A stretch of DNA of 64,000 nt from Ephemerocybe angulata (lineage: Eukaryota > Basidiomycota > Agaricomycetes > Agaricales > Psathyrellaceae): the NCBI GenBank assembly GCA_013368325.1, contig JAACJK010000015.1, positions 62,001 through 126,000 of the forward strand, written 5' to 3'. Of the stretch, positions 17,006-56,702 are shown in pieces. The notes beneath the pieces are model-generated. The model was not told the DNA's origin. It saw only the letters and a list, made by a program, of their open reading frames with translations, and ran no database searches. Within the stretch, counting starts at the first letter, position 1; each line of letters begins with the position of its first letter. The position numbers and the translations under genes are program-made.

Positions 17006-17010
17006 CTCTC

Positions 17011-18348: not shown

Positions 18349-18357
18349 GAGGGGGTG
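18349..18357 (+). other. polypurine tract of Copia
   Basis: GAGGGGGTG directly before the 3' LTR, 20 bases past the end of the polyprotein. Confidence 0.65.
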
Positions 18358-29281: not shown

Positions 29282-30141
29282 ATGGACTCGAATTGGACCC
29301 TGCAGGACTCGCCGTAAGTCGTTCTCCCCGTCCTTTGGTCTGCATCTGCCGTCACGGCGAGCCCAGCCCGCATGCCATGCCATTACTCAGGGCCGCACGG
29401 CCTTTTCCTTCCTCTCTCCAATCATCCTCGTCCCTCCTTCATCCATCCATTCATTCATTCGACTACTTCCACCGCTACCACCTCGACGACCGGCGAACTG
29501 CCTCCGCCGCCTCCACCGCCATAGCGCCTGCCGCCGAAACGACCAGGCTCGTTATCGACACCGAGCCCCTCCTCGCCCAGCGCACCCTCCGCTCGCCCTT
29601 CGCCTCCCTCTACACCCTCTACTCCCCTCGCCTCTCCTCCCGTCGAGCTTCACACTCCCCTCGACATCCACATCTTCCCCATCCCCCTCGCACGTCCCGT
29701 ACATGTCACTAACGTCCTCGCTCTCTCCCCCCAGTCGCTCCTCGCGCCGCGCCAGCGTCGCCGGCAGCGCCTACAGCGCCTCCGGCAGCACACGGCACAT
29801 GCTCGCCGACTTCAACGCCGACGTCTCCTCCACCCACTCGCCCTCCAACAGCGCCTCCCACCCCTCGCCCCTCCACCTCGAAGTACCCCACTACGCCGGC
29901 ATCTCCTCCGGTCTCTCCTCTGGCCTTTCCACCCCGACCTCGCCGTCGGGTCTGAGTCTGAGTGTAAACTACTTGCCGGCGAAGTTTAGTGATAATATTC
30001 TGAATGCAAGAGCAAGACTGAGGGGGAAGGGAGGGGGAGAGAAGGGGCCTAGTGTGCCGAAGCAGGGCGGAGGGTTGGCGGCGTTTAAGAGTGGGGAGGC
30101 GAGGATTGGGGGGAAGAGCTTGAGGTGGACGAGGTTTAAAG

Positions 30142-30145
<4 letters not shown>
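29282..30145 (+). pseudogene. tetraspanin gene, 5' part (interrupted by LINE nest)
   Basis: Exon 1 at 29282-29313 (MDSNWTLQDS), intron 29314-29734 (421 bp, GTAAGT..CCCCAG), then exon 2 from 29735. The cytoplasmic N-terminus is Ser/Arg-rich (SRRASVAGSAYSASGS), then LSVNYLPAKFSDNIL, a Gly/Lys linker with GGGLAAFKSGEARIGG, and SLRWTRFKV leading into membrane segment 1. This order is characteristic of agaricomycete tetraspanins. The exon is cut after 30145 by the poly-A end of a LINE. It resumes at 55319 in the same frame, completing codon AT|C. Confidence 0.88.

Positions 30146-30178
<33 letters not shown>
30146..30178 (-). other. poly-A tail of LINE
   Basis: 33 or 34 consecutive T on the plus strand, directly next to the AAAGTGAT target copy. 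Reads as the 3' poly-A of a minus-strand retroelement. The intact length shows little decay since insertion. Confidence 0.95.
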
Positions 30179-30179
<1 letters not shown>

Positions 30180-30409
30180 GTGGAGCCGAAAGCAGAGTGT
30201 GGACAACGACGTTATATCGCCTCCCCCTGCGGCTGTGTTTTGTGGATGTACATTATGCCAAGGTTAGGAACGAGACTTTTTATAGTCCCCACCGCGGGGA
30301 AATCCTCTTATAGGACACGTTCTGCGTAGTGTGAGGGTTTGGCTATTATTAACCCGGTCGCCCTGGTGGGCGGCCGGTGGTGCCAATACTCACTAAAACC
30401 CCGCTATTC

Positions 30410-31218
30410 CTATGGCTCATTTCTCTTGTCTACGACATTCTCCCAGGTGGCCTCACTCAGGCTGGGATCTATGGACTTATCTTTGTATCGTGCCCGGTCT
30501 GATGCCAGGATGTCGAGGTTCATCCGTTTATTTATTGAGTTCAGCCATGTATTGCGCGCTTCCGGGGTGCTTATTTCCTTTTCTGCCTTACCCCCGTCTC
30601 CGATGACCCATTTGCATCGAAGTGCCCATATGAGCCAGATGGCTTCAGTCATCAGTATTGTGCTGGCTCGGTCCTGGCCTTCCGTTGTTCCTTCGTTTTG
30701 CGGGAAACCGCATGAGAGTAGCTCTCCCATATCTGTGGGCTTACTCCAGGTGACGCCTGTCCTTCGGATTGCCACTTCTGTGAGGCGCCATATTTCTTTT
30801 TGCCCATTTCCTTCACACTCCAGCAGGATGTGATTCGGCGATTCAACAACCCCGCATTTGGGGCAATTTACTCTCGTAGCATATTTCGGGTTGTTCTTCC
30901 AGACATCGCCGCATGCTAGCGCGCCATGTACCAGCTTCCAGAGGAAAGCACGGACCTTCCGTTGTATGATATCCTTGCTTCGTATTGAGGTCCAGATCGC
31001 TTCCAGGTCCGGTGTTTGCTTAATTTTCCTCTGCACCGCACTTTTAATTAAAGTCAAGTTCTCTTCCGTGGCTCTCCTGGGGGCAGTCTTCTTTGATTTT
31101 ATCTCGACTAATAGCTTATAGATTTCTTTCTGTGACATCGCAGATAGTTTCGCGCCCAGGATCATGTTGCGCGCGTACTCCTTGACCTCAACTCTGCTGT
31201 CTAGTCCAGTTGTCCCTG
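30410..31218 (-). pseudogene. LINE ORF2 C-terminal zinc domain, out of frame
   Basis: Continues ORF2 after a one-base frame change near 31218 (RARLAGTTGLDSRVEV, then MILGAKLSAMSQKE). It contains the reverse-transcriptase zinc-binding signature KVRAFLWKLVHGALACGD and CPKCGVVESPNHILLEC. A 3' untranslated region of about 230 bases separates it from the poly-A tail. Confidence 0.88.
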
Positions 31219-34200
31219 CTAGTCTCGCTCTGTTCTTCGTCCCTCTTTCATCTGTGGCTGCGCATTTTTATCGTACTCAGACAGGATGGTGATTCCAGAT
31301 CTTGTCCTCAGCTTTGCGACCAGGACCCGCATTTGAGCCCGATTTTTATTTCCCGTCCAATTCATGTCCTCGTTTATTGTCAGACGGTCCGTGAGTTCAT
31401 CCACGAGCTGTTTAGAGTTCACATATATCTTAATGTCCTCGTCAACTCCGGCCATCTCGAGAGTTTCTAGAATTGCAAAAATGCTTGCCGTCGTCGTGCC
31501 CAGCGGGGTTTGTTTCGGGACTTTCGCCGCCCTCTGCATCTGTGGTGCTGGAGGACCGTTTCGGATGACACTGTAGCAGGTGTGGTGCAAAACAGATTTC
31601 ACTCGTCCCCTTGCTGTACCTGTGTAGTATACTGTGACCTCGTCAATCTGAGGCTTGGCCGTCTTGATATCCATCGGTCGTCCTATCCATGTGTCTCGCG
31701 CCTTTCCAAAAAGCCTATATCCATTGCTTTCCTTTGTGTACTCATCTAACTTCGGTGTAAACAGGCGTTCGCTCCCTTTGGGTATGAAGCTCATGGCCAG
31801 CATCTCGTGGCCTATGAGTAGTTCCTCCAGGTCAATTCGGTCGTCGTCAGGGTTCCATTTGGGCTTCAGGGAGTCAAGTATATTGGTGGCTATGTCGTGG
31901 CAGTACGCCGGGTCTTCGCACCCATGCGCTCTGTCTCTCCTACACTTCTCGCATTGGCACTCGGAGTCGTCACTCTCATCTCCGCTGGCACTCCCAGGCT
32001 GCGTCCCCCCCGGTCCTTGGGTGGGGTGAGGGAAGTTATCTACTAGCCACTGTAGGTCCCCGACGGTATATACCCCGTGAACATTCCGGAGGCATGTGGC
32101 TATTGCACCATTGTTGGGTGCGAGTCGGGTTCCGGGTTTCCGTCCTGGATGGTACCATATTGGCATCGCATTTTTTATGGTAGTGGTCACAGCGGGCGGC
32201 GTAAAGCAGATGTTATACTTTTCGGCAGTACGTATCATGTTTTTCAATGAGAGAGGGAGGCGGCTAACTTCAGCTTGTTTCCTTGTATGCCATGTCTGCT
32301 GGAATACGCTGCGCGCCGCGTCGAGATCATCGACATTTTGGGATTTGGGTATATCTCGCGCTATGAGGGCTCGGGCTGGGTATACCCATCTTGGGATATT
32401 CTCACCCAGGAATGTCAAGACTCGCATGAGGTCAATTGACTGATTCCGGAGTGGTATGTCTAGGGCTTTCTTCCCCCCTTTTTCGTACGGTAGGATTGTT
32501 GTTTCATGGTTTACTCCTGCTGGGGCACTGCCCCACATTATTCGGTTTATGCTCTTCTCAACCCGTCGTTCTACATCTTTGGACATGCCCTGCACAACCG
32601 TTCGGTACTGAGTCCTTCCTCCGGCCTCTATCTTGGTTATGTAGCTTCTGCCTTCCAGCGATGGTTTGGATTTCAGCCAAAAATCAACCTTGCTGTCCAG
32701 AATTTCGAGTGTTGTTGTCCAGACACTCGGGTTATCTACTTTGTTGCCTACGAATGCCCCTAGCGCACGCACGGGTTCACCGTCCTTTGCTATTTTAATT
32801 CCTTCAGGTATTCTTGAGGCCTCATCCTGGATTCGAGTCCGTCGTGTCGTGAGGAGTGTGTCTCGATATTCTTGTGGTCCAACTGGGACTAGCTCGGTCT
32901 TTTCAACATTGAATTTTGCTCCTGATGCATCACACCAGAGCTGGAGGATGTTTTGTAGGTCTTGGAAATTGTCATGTTCTGAGAGGTAAACTGTTGTATC
33001 GTCGGCAAAGAGTGTCGTGATTAGGCGTTCAATATTCTCATCAATCTTGAAGCCTTGGAGCGAGGACTTACGCAGTAGGTTCGCGAGGGACTCGATAGCA
33101 ATATTGAACAGAAGACATGATAAGGGGTCCCCCTGTCGCACACCTCGTGTTATCTTGTACGGTTTACTGATCACCCCGTTCAGGATGACGACCGTTTCAG
33201 CCTTATCGTATAGGGATCGTATTATCTTGCAGAAGTGGTCTGGGAATCCCAGGGTCTCAAGAGATCGTAGCAGGAAAGCATGCGTTATCCTGTCGTATGC
33301 CTTTTCTTGATCAAGAAAGACAAGTACCCCGTTCTCCTGTTCAACATCGCACCACTCAATCATGAGCTTGATCAGCTCGGTGTGATCATCTATGCGCTGC
33401 CCCTTCATGAAGCCTGCCTGGTCTGGGTGTATGAATTTTAGTGCTATTGGGCCCAGGCGTATGGTCTGCGCTTTAGTGAATACCTTGTAGTCCGCATTCA
33501 GGACTGTGATCGGTCTGTAATTTGCAATATCTGTTCTGTCTTTCTTCTTATAAATCGGGCACATCCACCCTTTAGCGAAATCACTATTGTCCGTGACTCC
33601 ATTTGTTTCTATGTCGTTGTAAAACAGCATCAGTATTCCAATAATATCCGCTGGTTTTTCGTCCTCTGCCGTGTTTCTCTCAGTGGCTTGTTTGTGCGCT
33701 CGTGCCATGTCCTTCCACAGCTCGGTCGGTATGCCGTCTGGCCCCGGTGCCTTCCCATTGGGCATCGACATCAGCGCCTCATATATAATTTCCCGGTCTA
33801 GCAGGGCTGCGAGAGTCTGTTTGTCATCTGGATTCAAGCGGTAGTCCATTTTGTCCAATACTAGCTCCATTGCAGTTCGTCGTTCTTCCTCTGAGTGGCT
33901 CACATCCACCTGTAACTTTTCATGGTAGTCACGAGCCGCCTGCGCCATATCTTGGGATCTGGTTATTGGGGGTGCTCCATGGTTCGTTGGGTCTTTCATC
34001 AGCTGCATCGTGTCTCTTGGGAGTTTTTCCTTGTTTGACTGTATCCAGTACTTGCCAATGGTCTCATTCTCGAGGATGGCTTTGGTGTGTGCGTTCTCTC
34101 GTTTGTTGTTGTGGAAGTCCGCTTCGAGTTTGTTCATACTCGTTTCAATTGTCTGCGCTCGGGCTGATCTCTGTCTGTCCGGTACGGTAGTGTCATTCAG

Positions 34201-35724
34201 GACAGCTTTCAGATCGTCCTTTAGCGACTTAATTTTTGCCTTGGTGCGTGGTATCATTACTCGCGCCATATCTCTCGCTTCTTGCAGTGCTACCTTCAGT
34301 TTGGCGAATGTTGTCTGCCTATTGTCCGTCCCGATGCTCTGGTCGTTCCACTCCTTCATTTTCTTCTCAGCCTTCTTACATTCTATGTTCGCGTATTTTA
34401 GATACTCTTTGTTCTTTAGCAGGAAGCCAGGCATCTGCCACCTGCCTGTCCCGATGTAGGGTGAGTCAAGGTCATAATAAGTGACCATAACAAGTTCATG
34501 GTCGGTATTGATGACCGTGGGCTCGTACGTCTCCCAGTTTCTTGTAGATTTGTACAGGCCCCTCTGGACATATATACGGTCTATTCTCGAGCGTCGAACA
34601 CATCCGTCTCTGATTTCATTCTCTCCTCCAAATTCGTCGCCCGATTCATCGTCCACTTCCTCATCCGGTTCCTCGTCTGAATCCGAGTCTGGCTCGTCCG
34701 CATCTGACTCTGGATCTACTGATACTTGTTTCCATGTGTATGCTTTTTCTTCTGGGTTCTCCTTGCGCCAGCCGTCTATTAGACTGAGGGTCTGTTTTAG
34801 GTCACGGAGTGCGTTCACGGTTGGCTCCTTCCCAGCTTTGGGTGGGATGCGGTCCAGAGCATCTTCCACGACGTTGAAATCTCCGACCATGAAGTGTGGC
34901 TTCCTTGGTCGTGAACGCGCTGGACCGGTTGTGTATGCGGCTCTCAGGCCTTCCCAGAAAATTTTGTTCTTGCCGGGGGCATTTGGTGCGTACACCCCAA
35001 GTATCTCAAGGGTGGTTGTGTTATTTTTCCACGGAATCGTTACATGGATTGCTCGTCCCACCTCCAGGACCTTTACGTTGACATGTTCTTTCCTTATGTT
35101 TAGCGCCCTACGGTTGATTACCACAGCGATGCCCGCCCGGTTCGTGTGTTCCGGGTCAATTGAGTTAATAATTATGAGTGTTTTTTCAAATAGCGTGTTT
35201 AGCTCGCTACAGCGCTCTTCTGTGAGGTGTGTCTCCTGGATGATTGCCAAACCCATCCGCTTGTTCCTCATTACCTGTCCCAGGTTTTCCCATTTCTTCC
35301 CGGTCTGATCAGACCCGCCGCCCCTGATGTTGAGTGTCCCAAGGGTCAGGTTCGCTTTCGTCCTCAGTTTTTTTTGACGGGCTGGCAGTTGTTCCTCTGC
35401 CTGCGCTTGTGAATGGCGGGGGTTCTGTCCACCATTCGGCTGTGTGTTCCTTGGGCCAGGAGCACGTCGTTCTGAATTGGGCGTGAGCCCTTGCGCTTGT
35501 CTACCACCGTACTCCGCAGTCAGGTCATCTAGGGGAAGGCCGGTAGACTGGCTCTGTCCCCCATCGTTGACTGGGAGGCTGAAGCCGAGACCGGGGAGAG
35601 TGACACCAATAGAGGGGAGGGGGGAAGAAAAACTTGCAGCGGTTGATCTATACTGTGCAATTAACAACCATGAGATTGCACAGGGGCCTATTATTGTCCG
35701 GGCTGCCTCGGGTGGGGAGGTACT
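31219..35724 (-). CDS. LINE ORF2: endonuclease, reverse transcriptase, degenerate RNase H
   Basis: The frame is open from 35724, but the first ATG is deep inside the endonuclease, so normal initiation is missing. Counting from 35667: apurinic-type endonuclease at about 105-400 (TLNIRGGG, IQETHL, VYAPNAPG, VGDFNVVED, SRIDRIYV, TDHELV); reverse transcriptase at about 640-930 (VRQGDPLSCLLFN, TTLFADDTTVYL); RNase H-like part at about 1340-1440. The latter keeps the fold pattern (KIYVNSKQLVDELTDRL) but lacks the aspartates (VYYTGTARG and YVNSKQ instead of YTDGS and YTDSK). It is broken from its C-terminal zinc domain by a frameshift at 31218. Confidence 0.93.
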   Translation of the reverse strand, partial: STSPPEAARTIIGPCAISWLLIAQYRSTAASFSSPLPSIGVTLPGLGFSLPVNDGGQSQSTGLPLDDLTAEYGGRQAQGLTPNSERRAPGPRNTQPNGGQNPRHSQAQAEEQLPARQKKLRTKANLTLGTLNIRGGGSDQTGKKWENLGQVMRNKRMGLAIIQETHLTEERCSELNTLFEKTLIIINSIDPEHTNRAGIAVVINRRALNIRKEHVNVKVLEVGRAIHVTIPWKNNTTTLEILGVYAPNAPGKNKIFWEGLRAAYTTGPARSRPRKPHFMVGDFNVVEDALDRIPPKAGKEPTVNALRDLKQTLSLIDGWRKENPEEKAYTWKQVSVDPESDADEPDSDSDEEPDEEVDDESGDEFGGENEIRDGCVRRSRIDRIYVQRGLYKSTRNWETYEPTVINTDHELVMVTYYDLDSPYIGTGRWQMPGFLLKNKEYLKYANIECKKAEKKMKEWNDQSIGTDNRQTTFAKLKVALQEARDMARVMIPRTKAKIKSLKDDLKAVLNDTTVPDRQRSARAQTIETSMNKLEADFHNNKRENAHTKAILENETIGKYWIQSNKEKLPRDTMQLMKDPTNHGAPPITRSQDMAQAARDYHEKLQVDVSHSEEERRTAMELVLDKMDYRLNPDDKQTLAALLDREIIYEALMSMPNGKAPGPDGIPTELWKDMARAHKQATERNTAEDEKPADIIGILMLFYNDIETNGVTDNSDFAKGWMCPIYKKKDRTDIANYRPITVLNADYKVFTKAQTIRLGPIALKFIHPDQAGFMKGQRIDDHTELIKLMIEWCDVEQENGVLVFLDQEKAYDRITHAFLLRSLETLGFPDHFCKIIRSLYDKAETVVILNGVISKPYKITRGVRQGDPLSCLLFNIAIESLANLLRKSSLQGFKIDENIERLITTLFADDTTVYLSEHDNFQDLQNILQLWCDASGAKFNVEKTELVPVGPQEYRDTLLTTRRTRIQDEASRIPEGIKIAKDGEPVRALGAFVGNKVDNPSVWTTTLEILDSKVDFWLKSKPSLEGRSYITKIEAGGRTQYRTVVQGMSKDVERRVEKSINRIMWGSAPAGVNHETTILPYEKGGKKALDIPLRNQSIDLMRVLTFLGENIPRWVYPARALIARDIPKSQNVDDLDAARSVFQQTWHTRKQAEVSRLPLSLKNMIRTAEKYNICFTPPAVTTTIKNAMPIWYHPGRKPGTRLAPNNGAIATCLRNVHGVYTVGDLQWLVDNFPHPTQGPGGTQPGSASGDESDDSECQCEKCRRDRAHGCEDPAYCHDIATNILDSLKPKWNPDDDRIDLEELLIGHEMLAMSFIPKGSERLFTPKLDEYTKESNGYRLFGKARDTWIGRPMDIKTAKPQIDEVTVYYTGTARGRVKSVLHHTCYSVIRNGPPAPQMQRAAKVPKQTPLGTTTASIFAILETLEMAGVDEDIKIYVNSKQLVDELTDRLTINEDMNWTGNKNRAQMRVLVAKLRTRSGITILSEYDKNAQPQMKEGRRTERD
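35652..35682 (-). promoter_or_regulatory. stem-loop at start of LINE ORF2
   Basis: CTGTGCAAT and ATTGCACAG form a perfect 9 bp stem around a 13-base loop. On the coding strand the loop holds an ATG that opens only a seven-codon frame. The position at the ATG-less start of ORF2 suggests a role in reinitiation or splicing; the function is inferred. Confidence 0.4.
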
Positions 35725-36175
35725 CTATCATTGTAGAACTCGCGATCTACTTTGTTAGTGCTTCGCCGACATGCGGCCCGGTACTCCCCCGACCTAAATA
35801 GGTCGCCGGGTTTGGCGCCCAGTCTCGGCGCCTGCGCGACAGCGCCCCATCAGCTTTCCTGAAATCCGGTGGACCAGTATATTTGGGCTGAGGGTTATGG
35901 TTTCACTGATATCCTGCCGACTAAGCTGGGATTCCTTCATCTACCTATACTAAGACGTCGTACGTAGTATGCATCACCAAGGTCATCAAGTCTATTCGAA
36001 GGCATGTATATTTATGATAGTGTACAAGGGTAAGCGAATACAGGTTCAGGGTTTTCAACTTTATCAAGAGGGCACGTTAACAGAAAGGGGGAAGTCGGTA
36101 CAGGAAGAGTCATAGAGTCCATCGGTCAAATCATATTTACTCAATTGAAGCCCATCGGGCGGAGGCAAGGTGAGA

Positions 36176-38073
36176 CTAGTACCACGCGGAGTCGTCGCCG
36201 TAGCTCTCGGAGGGGTCGGCGTAGGTGGAGGGGCCAGCCTGCGCGTAGGATGACTGGCGTGTGTTCCCGCGGCCACGGCCCCGTCCTCCTCGATGGTTGT
36301 TGTTTCCACGGCCGCGAGGGGTTCCGTACTGGGCCGGGGCGGTGGAGCGCGAGGCGTTGGTGTTAGCAACGATGTCATCGAAGGAGAAGGCAGCCTGGCC
36401 AGATGTGGGTGTGGGGTTGGAGGGTGCCGCGGTGTGGGCGGGGGCGGTCGTCGTGGTGTCTTGGTCGAAGAAGCCCGGGACGGACTTGAAGGGGCACAGC
36501 CCGGTTGGGTGGTCGCACCCCCGACAGATGACGCACCGGAAGTCGTTCGCCTTGGGTCGTCCGCGTCCTCTGGCGCTGGGAAAGTCAAGGTGCTTCTTGA
36601 GGCCGGCGATCAGCATGTCCATCATCGCCTGGACGTTCGAGGCAGGGTACATGAACATGCGCCACGCGACGACGGCCTCCCCCTTGACGATGATCTCGAG
36701 GGCAGAGACACGGATGGTGTTGATCAGGAAGTCGGCGGTGTCTCCTCTGGGGATCCGGTCGGGGATGTTGTCGCGGTTGCTATCCATTTCGACCCAGGCG
36801 CTGAAGGGGGCGTACTCCCGGAGTCGCTCCTTGAAGATCTCAGCAACCACCTTCTCGTTCGCCTTCGTCGGTGGGAGGAGGATGCCGGTCACCGTCATGA
36901 CATACGGTGACACGGGGAGTTGCACGGGGTAGCAGAAGGCGGTGACCTCTGGCGTCGACCAGGCCATGCGGTCGGTGAGTCGGTCGGCTTGCTCTTGCGC
37001 TATGCCACTGACCAGGAAGGGCTGTGGGACAGTCGGGTGGTCCAGGCTCTTCAGTTCGCCAGGCGAGAGAAGGAGGTCGGGTGCTTCGCCGATGAAGCTG
37101 GTGAGGAGCGCTTCGAGCTTAGAGAGGTACGCAAGAGAGAAGGTCGCGGTGGGGCGCATGTTGGCGATGACGAAGATGACCAGTGGGCCGTTCATCTTCG
37201 CCCAGACTTGGCGAGTCTCCTTGGTGAGGTAGCTCGCGAGGGTGCGGATGGTGACTCCTTCCGGCTTGGGGAAACCGCCTTCGGGGACAGGGGTGAGTTT
37301 GTCGGGAGGGAGATAGAGGGGGTCAGGGTTGGCGCCGGTGTCCATCTCGTCCTCGCTGTCTTCGATGGCGACGAGGTCGGGGAGATCCTCGTGCGTGTCC
37401 GACTCGTCCTCAGGGGTATCCTCCCGGAGGAAGATGCTGAAGTCCGTCTCGGGGGTGGGCTCCTCGCGCTGCTTGCCCTTGTCGGCCGTAGCTGTGGCTT
37501 CGCCAAAGACGACCTGATCGGGAGGTGAGTACGGGTTTTATCACTGTTGAGCTATCGTGTGCTTACTCTATGGGTAGGGGCCGGGTCTTTAGCAGTGGCG
37601 GACGCAGCGATCTGCAGCGAGTGGGCGATGGGCGCTGAAGCCTGCGTTAGGCGTCAGTGTGATGTTTCAAACAAAGAGTATATAACATGTACGTCTCCTT
37701 GGAGGGTGCCGTTCACGGCACCCGAACCAGTCTGGTCGATCGCATCCATGGCTTCGTTGTCTGGGCGGTTGATGGTGGACTTCTTCACAGGAGATGGGGA
37801 GGGAGAAGGTGCCTCGACTTCGTCAACTTTCCTCTTCGGAATCTTCGCGGGTGGTGCGCTGAGGGTCGTGGTACTGGCGGACTTCTTGGTGAAAAAGGAG
37901 TCGATGAAGTTTTCGGTGGAGGTGCCGAGGGGGTTCTGTACAGGTTTCTTGAGCGTCGCGGCGTAGGAGGGGGCCTTGGTCTGGGCAGGGGCAGCAGGGG
38001 TGGGGGTCGTGGATTGTTCGGCAAGAGGAGCAAAAGAGTTGGCGTTCGACTTGGTGGACCTCCTAGGCGGCAT
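36176..38073 (-). CDS. LINE ORF1 (Gag-like RNA-binding protein) with two introns
   Basis: Three exons: 38073-37693, 37641-37567 and 37513-36176. Introns are 37642-37692 (51 bp) and 37514-37566 (53 bp), both GT..AG and phase 0; total 597 residues. The N-terminus is Ser/Pro/Lys-rich, then an acidic hinge (DESDTHEDLPDLVAIEDSED), a folded domain at about 200-440, and a CCHC knuckle CVICRGCDHPTGLC. The tail is Arg-Gly repeats (GRGRGNT) that should bind RNA. CxxCxGxDHPTGLCP is typical of agaricomycete LINE ORF1 proteins. The gap to ORF2 is about 450 bases. Confidence 0.85.
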
Positions 38074-38590
38074 GGAGCGGTTCTTGGGGTGTAAGTGAGA
38101 GGTGTTTAAGCTTGGGTAAGAGGGGAGGTAGGGTCGCTGGTTGGTGGTGCTGTGTCTTCGGTGTAGGTGTCCCTTTTATGCGGTTGAGGGTACTCAGGGG
38201 CTTTGCGGGCGGCTGAGGGTGTTCCGGGAGTTGTCATGCTGTTCGTTCATGAAGCTCCATGTTTTGGGGTCTTGAATGGTCGGTGAACGGTGCATTCATG
38301 AGAGATGCATGGAAGGGGCTTACGCGTACGGTCAGGCGGTCAGTCATGACGCCCGTGCATAACAATTCAGGGTCTCGGGTCTGTGGGGGTCTGTGGGGGG
38401 CGCAAGTCCATCGCCCTGGCCCCATGCCCGTTCCCCGCCTCCTCCCTACGCTGGTCGCGCTCGTGAGGAGTCGATACGGTCTCCTTGGTGGTGAAGGATC
38501 GGAAGAGAGATGTCGATTCGGCTAGATCAGATCAGGCCTCGTCACCTGGGCTCATCTTGACACGCCACGTGCCTAGCTGTCGTGAGCGAG
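38074..38590 (-). other. LINE 5' untranslated region, proximal part
   Basis: G/T-rich on the plus strand with GTTCATTCATGA / GGTGCATTCATGA phrases. No coding content. The distal part of the same leader lies beyond Gypsy-2 at 55098-55310. Confidence 0.7.
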
Positions 38591-47672: not shown

Positions 47673-50600
47673 GGTCTGAAACGATGTTACGAGGGAGTCC
47701 GTGTAGTTTGTAGACGGACTCAAACATCATCTCCGCGGTTTGCTTCGCGTTGTAATTGGTGCGGCTAGGGATGAGGTGGACCATCGAGGTGAGGAGGTCG
47801 ATTACAACTGTGATGCAATCGAACGTCCCATCTCTGTTGGCTGATTCGGGGAGCGGGCCCACGAAGTCAACGCCAATCGTTTCCCAAGGGAATGAAGCCA
47901 CCGGGAGCGGGTTCAGCAAGCCGTATGGACGTTGGGTATCGGGCTTGTTGAGTTTGCAGGTGTGACAAGTCTCGCAGAACGACTTCACGTTCGCGATGAG
48001 GTCCTTCCAGTAAACATGCTCTCGTAGATAGCACGTAGTCTTGTTTGCGCCAAGGTGCGCGAGTAGAATATGAGCCTCAGAGATGACGATCTCGCGAGCC
48101 GAACTTTTTCCAATCATACCCTTCGGGATACACAGCAACAACTTCCCGTGCTCAGCGAGGTACAGAAGTTCATCGCGCACTCGGAAAGCGGGGTACTCGG
48201 AAGGGTTTTCGATCACGGAATGGAACACTGGATCTTTGGGATACAGCTTCTTGATCTCGGCGAGAAAGTCAATGCCCTCCGATCCGGTGCTTGCCTCTAC
48301 CACCGACACAAGAGATGCATCGGGGAGGTGAAATAAGTCCGCGACAGGGTCATTGGTATGAGGTGCCTCCGTGGTGGGGGTAGTGATAGCCGGAGGCGTA
48401 TTCTCGGTCTCGTTCTCCGCGATTGGGGCTATGGGACCTGTAGGTTGCCCACTCCCGCCCTCCGTTCGTTCTCGAGGGCCTCGGAGAACGAAGTGACGAG
48501 CAGCACGCGCAGCAAACTCCTTGCTGGTCTCAGCCCTGCCGGTCTCGGCGGGGGGAACCACCTTGCGAGAGCGCAAGACGCGTGTACTAGGGGGAATCGG
48601 CGATACCGCCAGAGCCTCCAATGCGGTAAATACGGGCATCGGACCGGGTAAGATAGGTGCATCATCGTCGACGACGTCGTGATAAGTGTACTCAGATCGG
48701 GCGCGGACGGTTCCTGGCGCGTCGTTGGAGTACATGCGAGATAGGGCGTCGGCCAATACGTTCTCGGGCCCGGGGGCGTAGAGAATGTCGTAATCAAATG
48801 CGCTAATCTTTTCGAGCCATCGGGCCTGTCGGCCTGACAGGTCCTTCTGAGTAGGGAGGTGCGTTAAACCCTTGTGGTCGGTGACCCAAGTGAATCGCAC
48901 GCCCTGCAAGATGTCGCGATTGCGACACATAGTCTCGATGCCTGCGAGCATTTCGATCTCATGAACGGGGTAGTTCTGTTGAGCGGGATTGAGCTTGGCC
49001 GAGTAGAACGCTGCGACCTTAGCAGTTTTCCAATCGTCGCCCTGACTAACGACGCCGGCGACGCCAGTAACGCAGCCGTCCGTAACGAGCCAGACTCTCG
49101 GAGCGTCTTTGCTATAGTCGAGAGGGACACGGTTGTGCTCACGAGCGGCATCGACAATGTTTTTGACGTCCTCGAACGCGCGCTGCTCAGTGAAAGTCCA
49201 CCTGAACGGGACTCCATCGCCGGTGATAGCGCTTAAGATTCCCAGCGGGATGCGAATAGATGGAAGATCGTCGGCGAGGAATCCAACGGAGCCAATGAAC
49301 CCACGAAGGAGGTCCCGGTTAGTGGGGACCTTCCAGTTAAGCACCGAGATGACCTTGTGGGGGTCCATGCGGATGCCGTCGCTGTCGACGACGCGGCCGA
49401 GGATCTCGATGCGGTCGACCAAGAAGAGGAGCTTGCCCTTACTCAGGTACAACTCCTCGCGCTCGAGGATTTCTAGAATAATGCGCACATGTTCGAGGTG
49501 CTCAGCGAGGGAGTCAGAGTAGATGATGATATCATCGAGGTAGACATCCATGAAGATGCCGATGTAGGACGAGAACAGGTAGTTCATCAGTGCCTGGTAA
49601 GTTGCGGGAGCGTTGCAGTCACCCTGTTGCACGACGTGACTAACGATATTACCGTCGGGGGTAGTCACAGCGGTGCGGTGTACGTGCTCGGGTACAACTC
49701 GGATTTGCTCGTAAGCGGCCTTAAGGTCGAGCATGGATCGAAACGGTTTCTTAGCCACACGGCGTAGAATACCGTCGATGTCTGGGAGGGGCGACGTGAG
49801 CTTGACCGTATTCTCATTGCGGGCGCGCAAATCGAACACAGTGCGTAGTTCAGGCACGTCCTTTTTGGGTTTGGGGATCAGCAACATAGGCATGGTGTTG
49901 CTGGCCGTGGTTATCTCCCAACGGCCAGACTTGATGTAAGCATCTCGCTTCTCGGCCCATTGCTCGCGAAACTTCTCCGGGCACCGCGAAGGTCGCCACG
50001 GATAGATCTTAGATTCGTCGATGAGCGGAATGGTGTGGTTGATGGCGCGCATCGGGGGCAGGCCGGTGTCCTCGACACCCTTGCAAAGCGGCTCGGCGAG
50101 CTGTTCGAGCGTACGCCGGGCTTGAGCGATCTCGCCATGGTCGAGGTCGATGCTCGATACCAATGGTCGAGTGTCGGTGCCTTTGGGTATGGCCAGCGAC
50201 GTCGCGCTTCCGATCACCACACGCGCTGGGTTCAGTCCAAGGCACACTTGGTGTTGGAAGATGAAGGGGGTACCAAGAATGAGGTCGTAGCTGCTAACGT
50301 TAATAACGTGCAACCAGCGATCCTCGTGAATGTTCTGGTAACAGAGTGAGACTTTAACGCGTGAGTTAATTTTGGAGCGGGAGCCTTGTACGGCGAGCTG
50401 AAGATTAATCGGTTTCTCGAGTGGGACGCGGCGCAAGCGAAGTTGGTCCACTAGCGTGCCGCTGATGAAGTCGCCGAGACTGCCTGAGTCCAAGAGAGCT
50501 CGCGCGGGGTTATCGTCGATCTTAACGACGATGACGAGAGGTTTCGGTACCATATGCATACTCTCCTTGATAACGGAAGAGTTGTTTTGCACCGCGGGGT

Positions 50601-53600
50601 ATGCGTTTGAAGGTACTTGCACGCCGGCTGCGAACGCAGGTCGTCTGTACTGCGTTCCGCTCACCACTCGGCGTTCGTATTCAATCGCAGCGCGAGCGCG
50701 GCGAATGGGGAACAGTCTCGCAGTCTGTGGGAGGACGCGTGCCCAGCATCGAGCGTCTTTAGCGACGCGAGCGAAGCTCGCTAACGATGGGTCACTGAAG
50801 GAGCTCGGAGGTGGGCTGGCATTCAGATCAATTACGTCGTCCTCGACGCACACGCATCGGAATGTTTCCATTTCGCACTCGGTCTCGTACCAGGCGATAA
50901 TGGGGAAATTAGGCGCCTCGGCGTCTGCTGCGGGTAGTCGCCTCGTGACCTCTCGGCGTTTATCGAAGATGATGAATGAGTCAGGGTCCGTGGGGTCTCG
51001 CGACACGACAAAACGGCCGACCTGGTCGTTGTATCCGTAGTGCTCGTCGTCGACGTAGGGCTCACCCATGTTGAGTAGGAATGCCATGCGTTGTTCAAAC
51101 CAAACGCCGATGCTGGTTGACGGCGGGGGATGATCCCCACGCCATCTGACAATCTCCTGCTCAATGGTGGCGAGGTCGTGGTTGCGAGCACAGTGTTCGG
51201 CGTACCACAAACCGAGGTCAAACGCGGGGTTACGAAGGCACGCGACGGGGACGCTAAGGCCGAGGTCGCGTTCTCTGTCTTCCACACTATAGTTCAGCCT
51301 GTCCGCCGTCGGGATGAGTTTGAACCTAGTTGCGGGATGTACAGTGAGCATGAGGTCTCCGGGATATTGAATCCCCTGAACGAGCGCATCGGTGGCGAGT
51401 TTTGCAAAGTCGCTGCGGAGATTCTGAGATCGGCGCATCTGTGTGCGCTCGGGGTCCGACATATCCAAAGGAGCGATGGTCTCGTCCTCCTCAGAGTCAT
51501 TGTCGGAGTCATCAGAGTCGTCTGAGTCGGATGCCTCATCCTCCTCCTCCTCAGAGGAGCTGTAGCTGTACGCGCTGATAGACTGTAAGTCGGGCATGCC
51601 GTCGTACGCGCCCGGCTCGTCTGAGTCCGAATCCGCCTCTGTATCCACGGGCGCTTCTGCACTGGACGTATCCAAGTCAGATTCCGGGGCATCAGGCTCA
51701 GGTGGAGCGGGAGGGTCGAGCGGGAAGACCTTCGCATCGAAACCGCGCTCGCCAGCGAGGACCAAATCATACCAGCGGATCAGATTGAATTTTTCGTTGC
51801 GCAGGCAAGCTCCGTCGATCAAGACATAGAAACGACGATCGTAGTCGTTGATCACGAAGACGTCGGTCTGCGCGTTCCAGATCTGGACGCAGAACCGATC
51901 CTCGTCGTCGATCTCGTCGTTCTGGCTGGGGTAGAACCGCGCGATACCATCCGTGAGCAAGCAGCTAGTCACGGCGCTTAATGCATCACCAATAGCGCCC
52001 GAGTACTTGGACCTGTTCGCCTTGATGGGATTCCGAGTGACTCGAGCTCGATGTTGCGCATAGTGACGGGAGAGACGGAAGGTGGGTTGCTCAACCAGTT
52101 CCTTTCGGATTGTAAAGGGTTCGCGAACTAGCCTGTCATAGATGCCATAATGTTGGTCATCAATAGAATACATTCCGAATCTCTCGGACATGCCAAACTC
52201 ATCGTTCCCGGTCCTGGTAGGTACGGTTGGGTCACCGGGGTAAGGTTGTTGCATGTTGAGGTGGTACTCAGCCATGAGAATGAATGCGTCCCCGAGCGTG
52301 CGGCGCACCTCTCGGGGGGCCTTGGGATATTTCATCCAGAAGGGCTCATGGAACTCATCACGGGTCCTTGGGCGCCTATGTCCCATGTTCATCGCCTCGC
52401 GGTGCGTGGCGCTGTAACGGACGTGACGCTCGTCCAAGAGGTCCTCAGGGAGCATTGCGTTGATGTACTCGCCGATAGCCATGACTGGCATCTCCTCGAG
52501 TATGCCGGAGTCGCCGTCGTACTCCATCTCAAGATTGAACGCTGCCATCCCGGGAGGTTTGCGCCCTCCAGCGGGGTTAGAAACGACGTTCGCTTCGCGA
52601 CAGTTACGAGCGATGTGTCCAGGCCTGTGGCAAATATAACACTGCCCGCCCTCCTGATGAGCACGACGCGTCGCGTCGTTCATGGGTGGGTTCTGAGATC
52701 GTGCTGGGGCGCGGTTATTACCGCCGGTCAGGCCTTGATTGGCGTTCTGGGATCTGTTCGCCGACGGCGTCTGACGCGTATCAGGCGCCCTGGTGCCTCC
52801 TCCGTATCGGGGAGCGTTCGACAGGAACTGTCCATTCGGAGCGCGCGGGGTGGCGTCATTGTTCCTTTGGGGAGGACGCGGGGTGCGCTGGTTATCTCCG
52901 TTGCGGGGAGTAGCATCATCACGGGCGTTGTAACCATTGTACCCGATGGTGACATTGGCTGCAGCGCTCGGTCCACGGCGGCCTCGCGTGAGTACGCGAT
53001 CAGCCTGCTCAGCAGCTTCAGCGCTCTCAACAATATCCTCCCAAGTCGACTGTTCGGGGGACAGGCGATCACGCCAAAGAGACTCCTGGATATGGGGCTC
53101 GAACCCGGTCCAGAGTCGATGCACACGCTCGCGGTCGTCGGTCATACCGACGGTCTCGAGCTTAGTGGTGAGGTCGTGGACGTAAGCCCACACGTCTCGA
53201 TTGCCCTGACGGTTGTGGTGAAGTTCTTCGCGTAGCTTAGACTTGAAATTCTTAGGGAAGCAATGATTAAAAAGTGCATCAAAGAATTCAATTAGGTCCC
53301 AACGTTCGGGATCGGCGGACGCGCGTTGTAGGTAGAAATCGTAAGCTTTATCCTCGAGGAAGGAGGACAGTACTTCGACCTGCTCGTTCTCGGGCAGGCG
53401 CGATCGGCGAACGTATGTCCCGTACTCGGCTCGCAGGCGTATGTACGAGTCCAAGTGGGGTCGTCCGTTGTACCTTTTGGGCTCCACGAGCGGCACTCGA
53501 GGGGCGCGCGAAGCTTCGATAGGCAAGTGTGCGGGGGCGTACGCCGGGCCATACGCAGGTGCGTAGGCCGGGACGTAGTGATTCCTGACTGGGCCCGCAA

Positions 53601-54588
53601 AATCGTGGGGTCCCTCCTCCTCGCGACGTGCGAGGGGAACGAAACGGGGCTGTTGCACCGGAGGCGCCGGTCTGGCGTACATCGCCGGTCTAGCGGGGGT
53701 AGCTGATCGGTACCTGGCTTCGCGCTCGCGAAGCCGGCCGAGTGCACTACCTTGTGACAACTGGTTAATAGGTCTGGTATCCTGCGCATGCTGCAGTCGG
53801 AACTGTGGTTCAGTCGGGGTGCGAGCGGGCCTGCCATCGTTATACTGACGGTGAGGCGGCTCGTCGCGCATGAAGTGCGCGCGATCATCGCGCGGGGCAT
53901 GTGTACGATCATGGTCATCATCGGCCATACGTACGCGGTTACGGTTGAATCCGTCTAATAGAGCTTTTTGGGTGGCCGGGTCCTGCTCTTCTGCTCGCAT
54001 ATCGAGTCTTCCCCAGTTACGGGGATCGGGTCCTTTTCCTTTATCCAAGAGGGGGTTGTCATTGTTATCGGAACCAAGTGAATTACGATGGGGGCGTCTA
54101 GAGGTCGAGGCGACGCCTTCGACCTCAACGCCATGTAGGGATAAGGTAGGTACTTTGTTCAAGATACTATCATCGGCGGCGTGCCTAGCACTGCCGCCGT
54201 CGTGGGATGAGCCGAGGCTCAACGCCCTTCTCCTGCCTCGAGCCGGTGCACGTACGTGCTCTCCCGACTCGTCTTTGAGGACGTCGGGGGCATAGCCACC
54301 CGCGGCCTCATCTCCCGCATCACCCCGAAGGGATGCAAGCGGTATGTACACGTCCCCGAGGGGAGTGGGGTTTGGGGCCGAACGACTAGCTGTGTGGTCG
54401 TCGTTCATTTTGTTTGCCGACGAGGCGGCTTCTAAGACGCCGAAGGCGAGATTAGATCGTGATGCAGAAGATGGGAACGCACCTGGGACGTCCGACTCGG
54501 CGCCGCCGCGATAAGTGCGACCGAGCGCGTTCGCGGCGATAGCGCGACTACGAGTGGTCGCCGGGATGGTACGCAGATAGGGGGCCAT
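47656..54588 (-). CDS. Gypsy-2 Gag-Pro-Pol polyprotein with large unknown spacer
   Basis: 2310 codons in one frame. Gag domain at about 370-560 (RLRAEYGTYVRRSRLPENEQ, DRVLTRGRRG). CCHC knuckle CYICHRPGHIARNC near 653. An unknown spacer of about 700 residues contains a module repeated three times and an acidic run. Protease ALLDSGSLGDFI near 1368. Reverse transcriptase with SMLDLKAAYEQIRVVPEH and VYLDDIIIYSDS. RNase H WLVTDGCVTGVAGV and VHEIEMLAGIET. Integrase zinc region CETCHTCKLNK and the first two catalytic acids in GVDFVGPLP and VSDRD, then a premature stop. A usual Gypsy polyprotein is 1200-1600 residues. Confidence 0.93.
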   Translation of the reverse strand: MAPYLRTIPATTRSRAIAANALGRTYRGGAESDVPGAFPSSASRSNLAFGVLEAASSANKMNDDHTASRSAPNPTPLGDVYIPLASLRGDAGDEAAGGYAPDVLKDESGEHVRAPARGRRRALSLGSSHDGGSARHAADDSILNKVPTLSLHGVEVEGVASTSRRPHRNSLGSDNNDNPLLDKGKGPDPRNWGRLDMRAEEQDPATQKALLDGFNRNRVRMADDDHDRTHAPRDDRAHFMRDEPPHRQYNDGRPARTPTEPQFRLQHAQDTRPINQLSQGSALGRLREREARYRSATPARPAMYARPAPPVQQPRFVPLARREEEGPHDFAGPVRNHYVPAYAPAYGPAYAPAHLPIEASRAPRVPLVEPKRYNGRPHLDSYIRLRAEYGTYVRRSRLPENEQVEVLSSFLEDKAYDFYLQRASADPERWDLIEFFDALFNHCFPKNFKSKLREELHHNRQGNRDVWAYVHDLTTKLETVGMTDDRERVHRLWTGFEPHIQESLWRDRLSPEQSTWEDIVESAEAAEQADRVLTRGRRGPSAAANVTIGYNGYNARDDATPRNGDNQRTPRPPQRNNDATPRAPNGQFLSNAPRYGGGTRAPDTRQTPSANRSQNANQGLTGGNNRAPARSQNPPMNDATRRAHQEGGQCYICHRPGHIARNCREANVVSNPAGGRKPPGMAAFNLEMEYDGDSGILEEMPVMAIGEYINAMLPEDLLDERHVRYSATHREAMNMGHRRPRTRDEFHEPFWMKYPKAPREVRRTLGDAFILMAEYHLNMQQPYPGDPTVPTRTGNDEFGMSERFGMYSIDDQHYGIYDRLVREPFTIRKELVEQPTFRLSRHYAQHRARVTRNPIKANRSKYSGAIGDALSAVTSCLLTDGIARFYPSQNDEIDDEDRFCVQIWNAQTDVFVINDYDRRFYVLIDGACLRNEKFNLIRWYDLVLAGERGFDAKVFPLDPPAPPEPDAPESDLDTSSAEAPVDTEADSDSDEPGAYDGMPDLQSISAYSYSSSEEEEDEASDSDDSDDSDNDSEEDETIAPLDMSDPERTQMRRSQNLRSDFAKLATDALVQGIQYPGDLMLTVHPATRFKLIPTADRLNYSVEDRERDLGLSVPVACLRNPAFDLGLWYAEHCARNHDLATIEQEIVRWRGDHPPPSTSIGVWFEQRMAFLLNMGEPYVDDEHYGYNDQVGRFVVSRDPTDPDSFIIFDKRREVTRRLPAADAEAPNFPIIAWYETECEMETFRCVCVEDDVIDLNASPPPSSFSDPSLASFARVAKDARCWARVLPQTARLFPIRRARAAIEYERRVVSGTQYRRPAFAAGVQVPSNAYPAVQNNSSVIKESMHMVPKPLVIVVKIDDNPARALLDSGSLGDFISGTLVDQLRLRRVPLEKPINLQLAVQGSRSKINSRVKVSLCYQNIHEDRWLHVINVSSYDLILGTPFIFQHQVCLGLNPARVVIGSATSLAIPKGTDTRPLVSSIDLDHGEIAQARRTLEQLAEPLCKGVEDTGLPPMRAINHTIPLIDESKIYPWRPSRCPEKFREQWAEKRDAYIKSGRWEITTASNTMPMLLIPKPKKDVPELRTVFDLRARNENTVKLTSPLPDIDGILRRVAKKPFRSMLDLKAAYEQIRVVPEHVHRTAVTTPDGNIVSHVVQQGDCNAPATYQALMNYLFSSYIGIFMDVYLDDIIIYSDSLAEHLEHVRIILEILEREELYLSKGKLLFLVDRIEILGRVVDSDGIRMDPHKVISVLNWKVPTNRDLLRGFIGSVGFLADDLPSIRIPLGILSAITGDGVPFRWTFTEQRAFEDVKNIVDAAREHNRVPLDYSKDAPRVWLVTDGCVTGVAGVVSQGDDWKTAKVAAFYSAKLNPAQQNYPVHEIEMLAGIETMCRNRDILQGVRFTWVTDHKGLTHLPTQKDLSGRQARWLEKISAFDYDILYAPGPENVLADALSRMYSNDAPGTVRARSEYTYHDVVDDDAPILPGPMPVFTALEALAVSPIPPSTRVLRSRKVVPPAETGRAETSKEFAARAARHFVLRGPRERTEGGSGQPTGPIAPIAENETENTPPAITTPTTEAPHTNDPVADLFHLPDASLVSVVEASTGSEGIDFLAEIKKLYPKDPVFHSVIENPSEYPAFRVRDELLYLAEHGKLLLCIPKGMIGKSSAREIVISEAHILLAHLGANKTTCYLREHVYWKDLIANVKSFCETCHTCKLNKPDTQRPYGLLNPLPVASFPWETIGVDFVGPLPESANRDGTFDCITVVIDLLTSMVHLIPSRTNYNAKQTAEMMFESVYKLHGLPRNIVSDRDDRT

Positions 54589-54859
54589 GGCAAGAAAGAA
54601 AGAGCTCGAGAGAGGGGGGAGATATCCTAGGATGGGCGGACGCTTGTTATCGGTTGATCAGACCGACGTCCAGAGAGGGTACAAGTCTAGTAGAGGGACT
54701 TGTTCAGCTGATAATGGATGGATGGATGTTCCTTGATACCACAAGGAAAATTTTAGGCGATGAGAAAATTTTCGCCTCTACGGGGAAAATCGGGGATGTC
54801 GTCCTGGTCGTAGATTTCGGGTTGACAGTGAAGACCAAGTTTGCTGATGTTAAAAAATA
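54589..54859 (-). other. Gypsy-2 leader
   Basis: Sequence between the 5' LTR and the gag ATG. The bases following the LTR on the element strand (TATTTTTTAACATCAGC) do not match a tRNA 3' end, so the priming mechanism is not visible. Confidence 0.5.
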
Positions 54860-55092
54860 TGTGACGAAAAGCAATAGCACAGAGGCTAGAAGGTGTCGTC
54901 GCAAGGGCTTGAGTCGCACAGACGAAGTAACAGGTTGAAACTAGGTCTTTTTGGTGGGAACTAGGAGGTAATCTACGACAGGAGGAGAGATTATATACTA
55001 GTACGATCTAAGGCTGTAGCCAAATATAGAACAAATAGAGAACAAATAAAGAGAAATCAGGAATAAACAAAGGGGAAATCGCGAACGCTACA
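54860..55092 (-). repeat. Gypsy-2 5' LTR
   Basis: Identical by eye to 38591-38823; flanked on the outside by TSD GCGAG. Confidence 0.95.
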
Positions 55093-55097
55093 GCGAG

Positions 55098-55310
55098 TTG
55101 CCCTTGGTTTACTCCTCTACTTTATCTATTACAAGGGGCTCGGGTGCGTTGTTCAGGGGGGAGGGGGCAGTCAATATGACATGGAGGCCTGCGTCTGTCG
55201 AGTACCACGAGTGTACGTTGAGAGACGGCGGATGAGCCAACTCCCTCCCCGCTGTTTCAGCGTGGGAAAAGAACCTGAACATGGTGGTTCAGGTTCAAGG
55301 AGCCCCCTTC
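55098..55310 (-). other. LINE 5' untranslated region, distal part
   Basis: Continues the leader broken at 38590. Ends against the target duplication AAAGTGAT and the resumed tetraspanin exon. No coding content. Confidence 0.75.
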
Positions 55311-55318
55311 AAAGTGAT

Positions 55319-56702
55319 CTTGTTCGTTGCGAATTTGTTGGTGAGTGCGTCAAGTACGTTCTGTGTGGGCGGCGCTGAAGGTTCGTCCTTTCGTTCATCT
55401 GTTTATTCTTGCTTCGCTCTCTCGCTCGCTCGCTCGCTCTCGCTCCGCCCTGTATCGGTCTCGGATCTACCGACGCTCGTCGCGCTCTCGGTCCTCGACG
55501 TCCTCCTTCCTACGTCGCTGGCTCGCTACCTGGCGGCCTTCGCCTTCTGCCGGTCCACATCCCTACTTGCTTCACGCCCCCCGCTTTGTTCTTCCTGCAC
55601 TTACTCGCTCGCCGCGGCTATGCATCGGTCGGTCTCCGCGCCCTCACGGATCTATCAACGCTCGTCGTGGCTCTCGGTGCTCGACGTCCTCCCTCCTCCG
55701 TCGCTCGCTCGGTACCTGGCGCCCACCTTCCGGCGATCGACCTCCGTTCTCGCTCCACGCAACCCGCCCCACTTCGCCTCCTCTCCCCTCCCGATCCTCG
55801 CTTCCGCTCTCGGTCCTCCACCATCCCTCCCACCCTCGTCTACCCCTCCAGCTCTCCCTCTACTCCCTCGTCGCCATGATCGCCTGCCTCCTCACCTGGT
55901 TCACAACCTGGCAACACGCCGACATAATCCGCATCGCCAACAACCCCGAACTCGTCCTCTCCACCCTCGCCGCCTCCCTCGGCATGCTCACCTCCGTCAT
56001 CGGCTGGGCGGGCATCCTCCTTAACAACCGCACTTTCCTCGCTGTTTATACGCTCCTTACGTGGGTGACGTTCGCGTTTCTCGTTACGCCGGGGTATATT
56101 ACCTACAGGCGATATAGTTTGAATCTTGAAGGGAAGATTAATGATATGTGGGCGAATGCGCTTGGTGCGATGGGGAGGATGAGGATCCAGAATCAGTTGG
56201 AGTGTTGTGGGTACTTCAGCCCGTACGTCGAGGCTACCGTCTCCCAAACCTGCTACGCCCGGAGCATTCTCCCAGGGTGTAAGAAGGGTATTTGGGAGTA
56301 CGAAGAGAGGATATTGAGCAACTGGTTTAAGGCAGCTTTCGCGCTGGTGCCAGTGCATATATGTGTGATGCTGGCGGCGTTGATGTGTAGTAATCATGTT
56401 ACTTATCGGTTTGGGAAGGGGATGATGCCTGAGGCCTATCGGTTGAATGTGGGGAGTATGGCGGTTATTATGGATCAGTATGCGAAGTGAGTTTGGCTTT
56501 TTTTTGTTTGTTTTGGGTCCTTTTTCGTCCCACTCCATTCGCCGTCCTTCCTCTTCGTCTCACTCCACCCCGTCGAGCGACGTACTGACCACCGTTTCTT
56601 CTTCATAGTCAACTCGCAGAGCAGTACGGCCCCGAAGTCGCAGGCAAGGTGCTCGAACAGTCGAAGTCGAGTCTCGGGCTCGCGCAGACGACTGCACGGT
56701 AG
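55319..56702 (+). pseudogene. tetraspanin gene, 3' part (four-membrane-segment body)
   Basis: The exon remainder 55319-55340 completes segment 1 start (LFVANLL). Then intron 55341-55851 (511 bp), exon 55852-56486, intron 56487-56608 and exon 56609-56702. Segment 1 ends LYSLVAMIACLLTWF; segment 2 VLSTLAASLGMLTSVIGWAG; segment 3 VYTLLTWVTFAFLVTPGYI; the large loop has the tetraspanin CCG motif (QNQLECCGYFSP) and further Cys in TCYARSILPGC; segment 4 FALVPVHICVMLAALMC. The tail NQLAEQYGPEVAGKVLEQ is cytoplasmic. Joined to 29282-30145, all phases agree and the length is 397 residues. Tetraspanins organise membrane protein complexes. Confidence 0.9.
55443..55790 (+). repeat. diverged tandem duplication inside tetraspanin intron
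   Basis: Two units of about 180 bp share TATCGGTCTC / ATCGGTCGGTCTC, GACGCTCGTCG / AACGCTCGTCG, GTCCTCGACGTCCTCC / GTGCTCGACGTCCTCC and CTCGCTACCTGGCG / CTCGGTACCTGGCG in the same order. It explains why this intron is much longer than usual. Confidence 0.75.

Follow-up and report, generated by a model that had tools for sequence, protein, structure and literature searches.

A Tsp2 tetraspanin gene of Ephemerocybe angulata split by a nest of four transposable elements

The Tsp2 tetraspanins of basidiomycetes carry a long N-terminal tail, four membrane segments and a loop of the pattern CCGY/F-x12-CY/F-x6-GCK, and several Tsp2 paralogues per genome are known in Coprinus cinereus and Laccaria bicolor, as set out in the family's description (Lambou et al. 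2008, PMC2278132). Here we describe a Tsp2 gene of the mushroom Ephemerocybe angulata that is interrupted in its second exon by four transposable elements, each lying inside the one before. The gene lies in a stretch of 64,000 nucleotides, called the window below (positions 62,001 to 126,000 of contig JAACJK010000015.1, C231:62001-126000 in our numbering), in a genome assembly of 58,665,410 bases and 232 contigs (GCA_013368325.1). It has the same tail, segments and loop, and the same plurality of paralogues per genome, as that description gives for the family; it differs in that one paralogue is split by the nest and another lacks exons 1 and 2.

Two fungal genomes offer comparisons for the nest. 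In Pleurotus ostreatus, recent long terminal repeat (LTR) elements are clustered and genes influenced by transposons are reported to be repressed, chiefly in clusters (PMC4905642). The window shares with it the gathering of recent LTR elements in clusters, whereas here a four-level nest occupies a single exon with all of its duplications readable, and three of the four elements have no second close copy, as far as the parts searched go. In Marasmius oreades, one of the nuclear genomes holds a single copy of the transposase-bearing hAT element MarorhAT-10, accompanied by non-autonomous elements with the same termini (PMC9674265). The likeness is a lone transposase-bearing hAT beside non-autonomous kin; the difference is that the inner hAT described here sits within a miniature inverted-repeat transposable element (MITE) with different terminal repeats. 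A literature search did not find the split tetraspanin locus in print, which is no proof of its being unpublished, and the one paper found to pair a nested transposable element with a tetraspanin was unrelated.

The host gene consists of five exon pieces on either side of a long interspersed nuclear element (LINE). All positions are those of the window unless a contig is named, and C22 denotes an uninterrupted paralogue on another contig.
29282..29313, plus strand: Tsp2 exon 1, with the ATG and a GTAAGT donor; 32 of 32 bases are the same in exon 1 of C22.
29735..30145, plus strand: 5' part of exon 2, ending at the LINE, one target duplication copy included; aligns to exon 2 of C22.
55319..55340, plus strand: exon 2, 3' part, with a GTGAGT donor; C22 runs on here without an insert.
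55852..56486, plus strand: exon 3, which opens with most of the first membrane segment (TM1) and reaches the C-terminal tail, with the CCG loop; Pfam Tetraspanin at 55867-56388.
56609..56702, plus strand: exon 4 and stop, placed by splice borders and coding sum.

Joined, the five pieces total 1194 coding nucleotides, or 397 codons plus a stop, with no internal stop or frameshift, and every exon border is GT/AG except at the LINE joint. The product matched Pfam Tetraspanin (PF00335) with 35.4 bits against a cut-off of 32.1. Kyte-Doolittle hydrophobic windows in the C-terminal part fall into four clusters, corresponding to four membrane segments, and the motif CCGYFSPYVEATVSQTCYARSILPGCK, found in this part and in C22, fits the extracellular loop 2 pattern CCGY/F-x(12)-CY/F-x(6)-GCK. 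An earlier note on this DNA, made from the letters alone, had joined the exons into 397 codons plus stop and had described a CCG loop and four membrane segments, and these findings bear it out on both points. The N-terminal tail has about 145 residues before TM1, within the Tsp2 range of 83-200, and the C-terminal tail runs for 62-63 residues past the window of the fourth segment (an approximate, Kyte-Doolittle boundary), against a Tsp2 range of 66-101. The interruption falls in exon 2, where the first membrane segment begins. The best database matches to the tetraspanin are two E. angulata Tsp2 proteins, with 93% and 95% identity to the C22 copy over 92% of its length. The earlier note had staked its joining of the two halves on relatives whose N-terminal part matches the window, and they do (109/115 residues for the protein P0001 and 105/112 for P0002). 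In a tree of the C-terminal part (29 rows: 5 from this genome and 24 of 120 listed), the window gene, C22, a further paralogue on C139, and the proteins P0001, P0002 and P0005 form a clade with 100/100 support, nested in a 100/99 clade with Tsp2 of C. micaceus and C. cinerea.

Evidence that this is one gene comes from C22. Its gene (C22:342106-344158; 393 residues, every border intact) is collinear with window exons 29282-30145 and 55319-56702, and the window flanks align to C22:342109-344587, minus strand, at 76-82% identity. This alignment spans untranslated regions, exons and introns, with no insert at the window joint 30145/55319. C22 is therefore a natural empty site: what it lacks is 25,165 bp, bounded in the window by AAAGTGAT. 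The earlier note's claim of one gene split by nested insertions thus stands; its picture of a single tetraspanin gene does not, because the window copy is one of three paralogues separated by a synonymous divergence (dS) of 0.40-0.47.

The outermost element of the insert is the LINE.
30138..30145, unstranded: LINE target duplication AAAGTGAT, left, exact repeat.
30146..38590, minus strand: LINE, 3' part, with RVT_1 (7.2e-35) and zf-RVT (2.5e-6).
30146-30178, minus strand: LINE tail of 33 T.
30410-31267, minus strand: zf-RVT frame (2.5e-6).
31219-35724, minus strand: reverse transcriptase (RT) frame (RVT_1, 7.2e-35).
36176-37537, minus strand: possible first open reading frame (ORF1), assigned by position.
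55098..55310, minus strand: LINE, 5' end part of 213 bp, between the two right-hand target duplications.
55311..55318, unstranded: LINE target duplication AAAGTGAT, right, exact repeat.

The two parts (30146-38590 and 55098-55310) add up to 8658 bp. The element has the features of its class, namely an RT, a tail of 33 T as read on the plus strand, a duplication of variable length and no LTRs; the AAAGTGAT duplication is 7-8 bp, its final T possibly coming from the LINE tail. A match to Exo_endo_phos (0.017) lies below the cut-off, and the relatives P0123-P0125 carry that domain (PF03372); the Pfam scan gave no match for 36176-37537. The RT and zf-RVT frames overlap at 31219-31267, and the coding region is thus not in one frame. 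An exonic LINE with its own target duplication, as the earlier note had it, is confirmed by the exact repeat and the RVT_1 match.

Within the LINE lies a Gypsy LTR retrotransposon (38591-55092, minus strand).
38586..38590, unstranded: Gypsy target duplication GCGAG, left, exact repeat.
38591..38823, minus strand: 3' LTR, 233/233 identical to the other LTR.
38824..39423, minus strand: internal region beyond the MITE, between LTR and MITE, including the MITE duplication copy 39416-39423.
45912..54859, minus strand: internal region with Pol, from Pfam domains.
45912-46787, minus strand: frame cut by the MITE, from the frame list.
46788-47726, minus strand: frame with SH3_Tf2-1 (Pfam).
47656-54657, minus strand: frame with RVP_2, RVT_1, RNase H and Integrase_H2C2 (Pfam).
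54860..55092, minus strand: 5' LTR, identical to the 3' LTR.
55093..55097, unstranded: Gypsy target duplication GCGAG, right, exact repeat.

The LTRs run TG..CA, and the 5-bp GCGAG duplication is exact (38586-38590/55093-55097), just as the earlier note had read a Gypsy inside the LINE. A single frame holds the domains in the order RVP_2 (1377), RVT_1 (1597), RNase H (1855) and Integrase_H2C2 (2186); no match to the integrase core (rve) turned up in the scanned frames. The Pol frame overlaps the SH3_Tf2-1 frame at 47656-47726, and again coding is not in one frame.

Two further elements lie inside the Gypsy, both with terminal inverted repeats (TIRs).
39416-39423/45912-45919, unstranded: MITE target duplication ACCTCCGC, exact repeat.
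39424..39798, plus strand: MITE-like hAT element, left part, with the 22-bp TIR CAAGGGTGGTCCGGTCTTTAAA; from sibling copies and the duplication ACCTCCGC.
39791-39798/45849-45856, unstranded: inner hAT target duplication AGCCTGGC, exact 8-bp repeat.
39799..45848, plus strand: inner hAT, with the 15-bp TIR TAGACCGCCCGCGGT; from Dimer_Tnp_hAT (4.8e-9), TIR and duplication.
45849..45911, plus strand: MITE-like hAT element, right part; 12 other places match at 94-100% over all 63 bases.

The earlier note had taken 39424-45911 for one hAT with the duplication ACCTCCGC. The hAT type and the exactness of the duplication stand. The interval itself is two elements, which came to light because its last 63 bases recur in those 12 other places, whereas no other close copy of its transposase part was found. 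The nest accordingly has four levels and not three, the third and fourth having been merged, and the inner hAT has its own duplication, AGCCTGGC. Without the inner hAT, the window MITE-like element is 430 bp long. Its left 375 bases found 10 other near-full-length matches at 87-99%, among 46 rows that also include one match at positions 52-375 and one split copy, 100% identical, on the same contig. That split copy (C231:45012-53417, ~9 to 17 kb before the window begins) is 100% identical in its matched parts, which overlap by 10 query bases and are separated by ~8 kb of other sequence. Three of five sibling loci examined (L041-L043) are 431 bp long, with perfect 8-bp duplications, a single uninterrupted AGCCTGGC and no inner hAT; for L044, in reverse orientation, and L045, with two copies, our script gave no correct parse. 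Short length, TIR, 8-bp duplication and many similar copies identify a MITE of hAT type. The inner hAT has a dimerization domain (Dimer_Tnp_hAT, 45373-45633, plus strand, 4.8e-9), and its other six scanned frames gave nothing above the cut-off. Its 15-bp TIR is perfect and differs in sequence from that of the enclosing MITE.

Together, these data make it very probable that one Tsp2 paralogue was recently inactivated by a LINE in exon 2, followed by the Gypsy, the hAT-type MITE and the transposase-bearing hAT. The order of insertion is known because every element sits within its predecessor. The LINE would have entered the second exon by target-primed reverse transcription, as its tail and duplication suggest; the Gypsy would then have inserted in the LINE, the non-autonomous MITE in the Gypsy and, last, the transposase-bearing hAT in the MITE. 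As the locus now reads, the frame of its 5' half leaves exon 2, enters the LINE tail and ends at 208 residues. The sole hydrophobic window of this half comes largely from poly-T read as phenylalanine, and we regard it as a chance product of the tail. The original start and promoter are missing from the 3' half. The split locus would thus make no working tetraspanin.

Several measures place the insertions in the recent past. The Gypsy LTRs differ at 0/233 positions, giving a 95% upper age of ~0.06, 0.64 or 6.4 million years at assumed rates of 1e-7, 1e-8 or 1e-9 substitutions per site per year. The 33-T LINE tail is unbroken. Star-tree parsimony over 241 codons of exons 3-4 (9 three-way sites excluded) assigned 28 synonymous and 7 non-synonymous changes to the window lineage, 27/4 to C22 and 25/8 to C139 (Fisher test, window versus C22, p 0.52; versus C139, p 0.77), and the same method puts the neutral share for the window lineage at an estimated 3.2%, with an upper bound of 11.5%. 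Because the LTRs are identical, the T tail is unbroken and coding changes resemble those of the intact copy, decay of the window copy is below the measurable level. The undecayed host exons that the earlier note had reported, and the recency that it had proposed as one possibility, are upheld by these figures.

Four points weigh against this account of a recent four-step inactivation. LTR identity over a mere 233 bp dates loosely. Inactivation, and fixation with it, would be conclusions from the DNA sequence of one assembly. Levels 2 and 3 rest on termini and duplications and lack an empty site, because no second LINE or Gypsy copy was found in the searches with parts of these elements. The overlapping frames of the LINE RT and the Gypsy Pol may mean elements defective on arrival, frameshifting or small assembly errors.

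The close paralogues show that the window gene is not the only damaged copy. A genome-wide Tetraspanin scan gave seven places, namely the split gene on C231 and places on C22, C139, C190, C121, C6 and C117; the four other Tsp2-type places are C22 and C139, which are close, and C190 and C121, which are more distant. In the C139 paralogue (C139:14466-16157), exons 3-4 are open and conserved and their flanks are present, there is no counterpart of exon 1, intron 1 or exon 2, and the 5' flank has ~160 extra bases; this loss would be a deletion. Different events have therefore broken two of the three close paralogues at the 5' end, and C22 is intact. Window and C22 have dS 0.401 and a non-synonymous divergence (dN) of 0.032 over 391 codons (N-terminal part only, 0.324 and 0.042; exons 3-4 only, dS 0.470). 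Over exons 3-4, window and C139 have dS 0.474 and dN 0.035; C22 and C139 have 0.459 and 0.029. Pairwise omega in exons 3-4 is 0.058-0.074; the three paralogues are roughly equally old, and purifying selection has acted on each. When the window gene is compared with P0001 (E. angulata), informative sites in the N-terminal part divide 2:1:1, and a stretch of four residues is shared besides; those of the C-terminal part group window with C22 (5:1:0). This pattern suggests either exchange between copies within a strain or separate duplications. The Tsp2 copy on C190 matches another E. angulata protein at 97% identity (344/354) and is 81.5% identical to C121 over 2,969 aligned positions. Loss of the window gene is probably buffered by C22 and the two more distant genes, and may have been tolerated because these remain. 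The tetraspanin-domain places at C6:924-1223 and C117:80678-80977, with near-equal score and span and one internal TGA each, are possibly an intron-bearing gene in two copies, for which the label Pls1-type is a guess.

Of the other explanations, the one that survives best is that a dikaryon carries the nest as a null allele in one of its nuclei and keeps an intact allele in the second. It concerns frequency, not anatomy, and is compatible with a recent inactivation, and we regard it as possible, though less likely than not. Young insertions in an outcrossing mushroom would be expected to be polymorphic. A control search for the Rpb2-type domain PF00562 matched three loci in the genome, which we take to be the three nuclear polymerases expected of one haploid set. 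Because PF00562 is at three loci only, the assembly is seemingly without two haplotypes and looks like one haploid set; if there is a second nucleus, it may just not have been sequenced. C22 and C139 were considered as alleles of the window gene and rejected on their equal distances (dS 0.40-0.47), on the three PF00562 loci and because similarity stops near the gene (for C22, ~1 kb beyond it, with 10 kb compared around each copy). Against the null allele, no second allele of the locus was found in the assembly, where other matches over more than 100 bases are 73-83% identical and the best are paralogues at 79-83%. In M. oreades, no new insertions arose in dikaryotic growth and monokaryons gathered considerable transposon-driven variation (PMC9674265); by that example, an origin before mating would be the likelier one for an allele of this kind.

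We consider it very unlikely that the 3' half is still used, with exons 3-4 (perhaps in C139 too) making, from a downstream start, a tetraspanin that lacks the long N-terminal tail. Two of the three paralogues have lost or split exons 1-2 in different ways, exons 3-4 are open in all three with the low omega given above, and the exon-3 frame extends wholly or partly into intron 2 in the three copies (381, 310 and 304 residues). However, the low omega is accounted for by constraint before two recent losses, and TM1 begins in coding sequence that precedes intron 2. We rejected the idea that intron 2 is itself coding, as several indels between window and C22 are not multiples of three and the intron is therefore not conserved as coding sequence.

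Less credible still is an assembly chimera in which gene halves and repeats were misjoined. A single assembly was examined, and nested repeats are where assemblies fail. Yet four exact target duplications are nested in the correct order, the joint agrees with that of C22 without the insert, and no second close copy of the searched LINE and Gypsy parts was found that might mislead an assembler; the assembly join at either boundary that the earlier note had named as a danger is disfavoured on these grounds. Least of all do we credit a functional gene that splices out the 25-kb insert as a giant intron: the host exons and splice sites are undecayed, for which recency accounts, whereas the ends of the insert are a duplication and poly-T, not GT/AG, and 25 kb is far outside normal fungal intron size.

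We searched the genome for further copies of the inserted elements using parts of each (LINE, 31219-35724 and 30179-31218; Gypsy, 51000-55097; hAT, 42000-45848). The searches skip very common words, and row counts are lower bounds. The LINE RT found 27 other rows at 64-79%, the longest 66-67% over ~1,300 bases; two rows, of 507 and 668 bases, have 70% identity, and all rows above 70% cover at most 206 bases. The 3' end of the LINE found itself alone in the genome, with no truncated copies seen. The Gypsy part (~4.1 of 10 kb) found only itself and its own other LTR, and no solo LTR. The hAT part found no close second copy in the genome. It did find distant matches (69-72%) on C77 and C143, which lie within the transposase region, and short matches at the termini, mostly 81-94%, that look like non-autonomous kin. 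As controls, a second Gypsy of the window (10825-14900) found relatives, the long ones at 67-71%, and the MITE search found 45 other rows; a very common family would hardly find itself alone, even with common words skipped. In E. angulata, the LINE RT has database relatives at 62-65%. The best named relatives of the Gypsy are from Candolleomyces efflorescens (P0242, P0243), which share its kinds of Pfam domain and are 74-76% identical in Pol over query residues 1550-2050; of the 120 proteins listed, many of which are nameless, none bears the name Ephemerocybe. A comparison of the Gypsy protein with a prokaryotic contig collection, ill-suited to this question, confirmed no relative. Because the searched parts of LINE, Gypsy and inner hAT have no close copy in 58.7 Mb, these young-looking elements might have sources outside the genome. 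They would have entered through a cross with a different lineage, or by horizontal transfer, and accumulated at this locus within a short time. We think this improbable; if true, the split tetraspanin would be the record of an immigrant transposon burst.

Upstream in the window lies a second young nest (2999-18760), a Copia holding a chromodomain Gypsy. The Copia has LTRs at 2999-3401 and 18358-18760 with 0/403 differences and the duplication CACAT; the Gypsy within it (7085-17005) has LTRs with 1/639 different and the duplication CTCTC. A ~357-bp repeat at 59627-59983 matches eleven other genome places at 77-91%, one of them in the window at 942-1298. Frames on the plus strand at 20600-22000 contain the motif TVGYGE, the selectivity filter signature of potassium channels, and suggest a channel gene. 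A 472-residue open frame at 62449-63867 has a weak retrotransposon zinc-knuckle match below the Pfam cut-off.

The process seen here is ordinary, a duplicate gene recently lost to nested transposons, and is unusually readable. What sets it a little apart is that two of three paralogues were broken at the same end in different ways, and that three of the elements have no close kin in the parts searched. Gene loss caused by transposons is well known, and is seldom caught this early, with a four-step order and an intact sister copy. The locus is also a test case for annotation pipelines, which may report two partial genes. It lets one ask whether young duplicates of a membrane organizer vanish by chance, one after another, and if the insert is polymorphic in populations, the loss of a duplicate could be followed directly.

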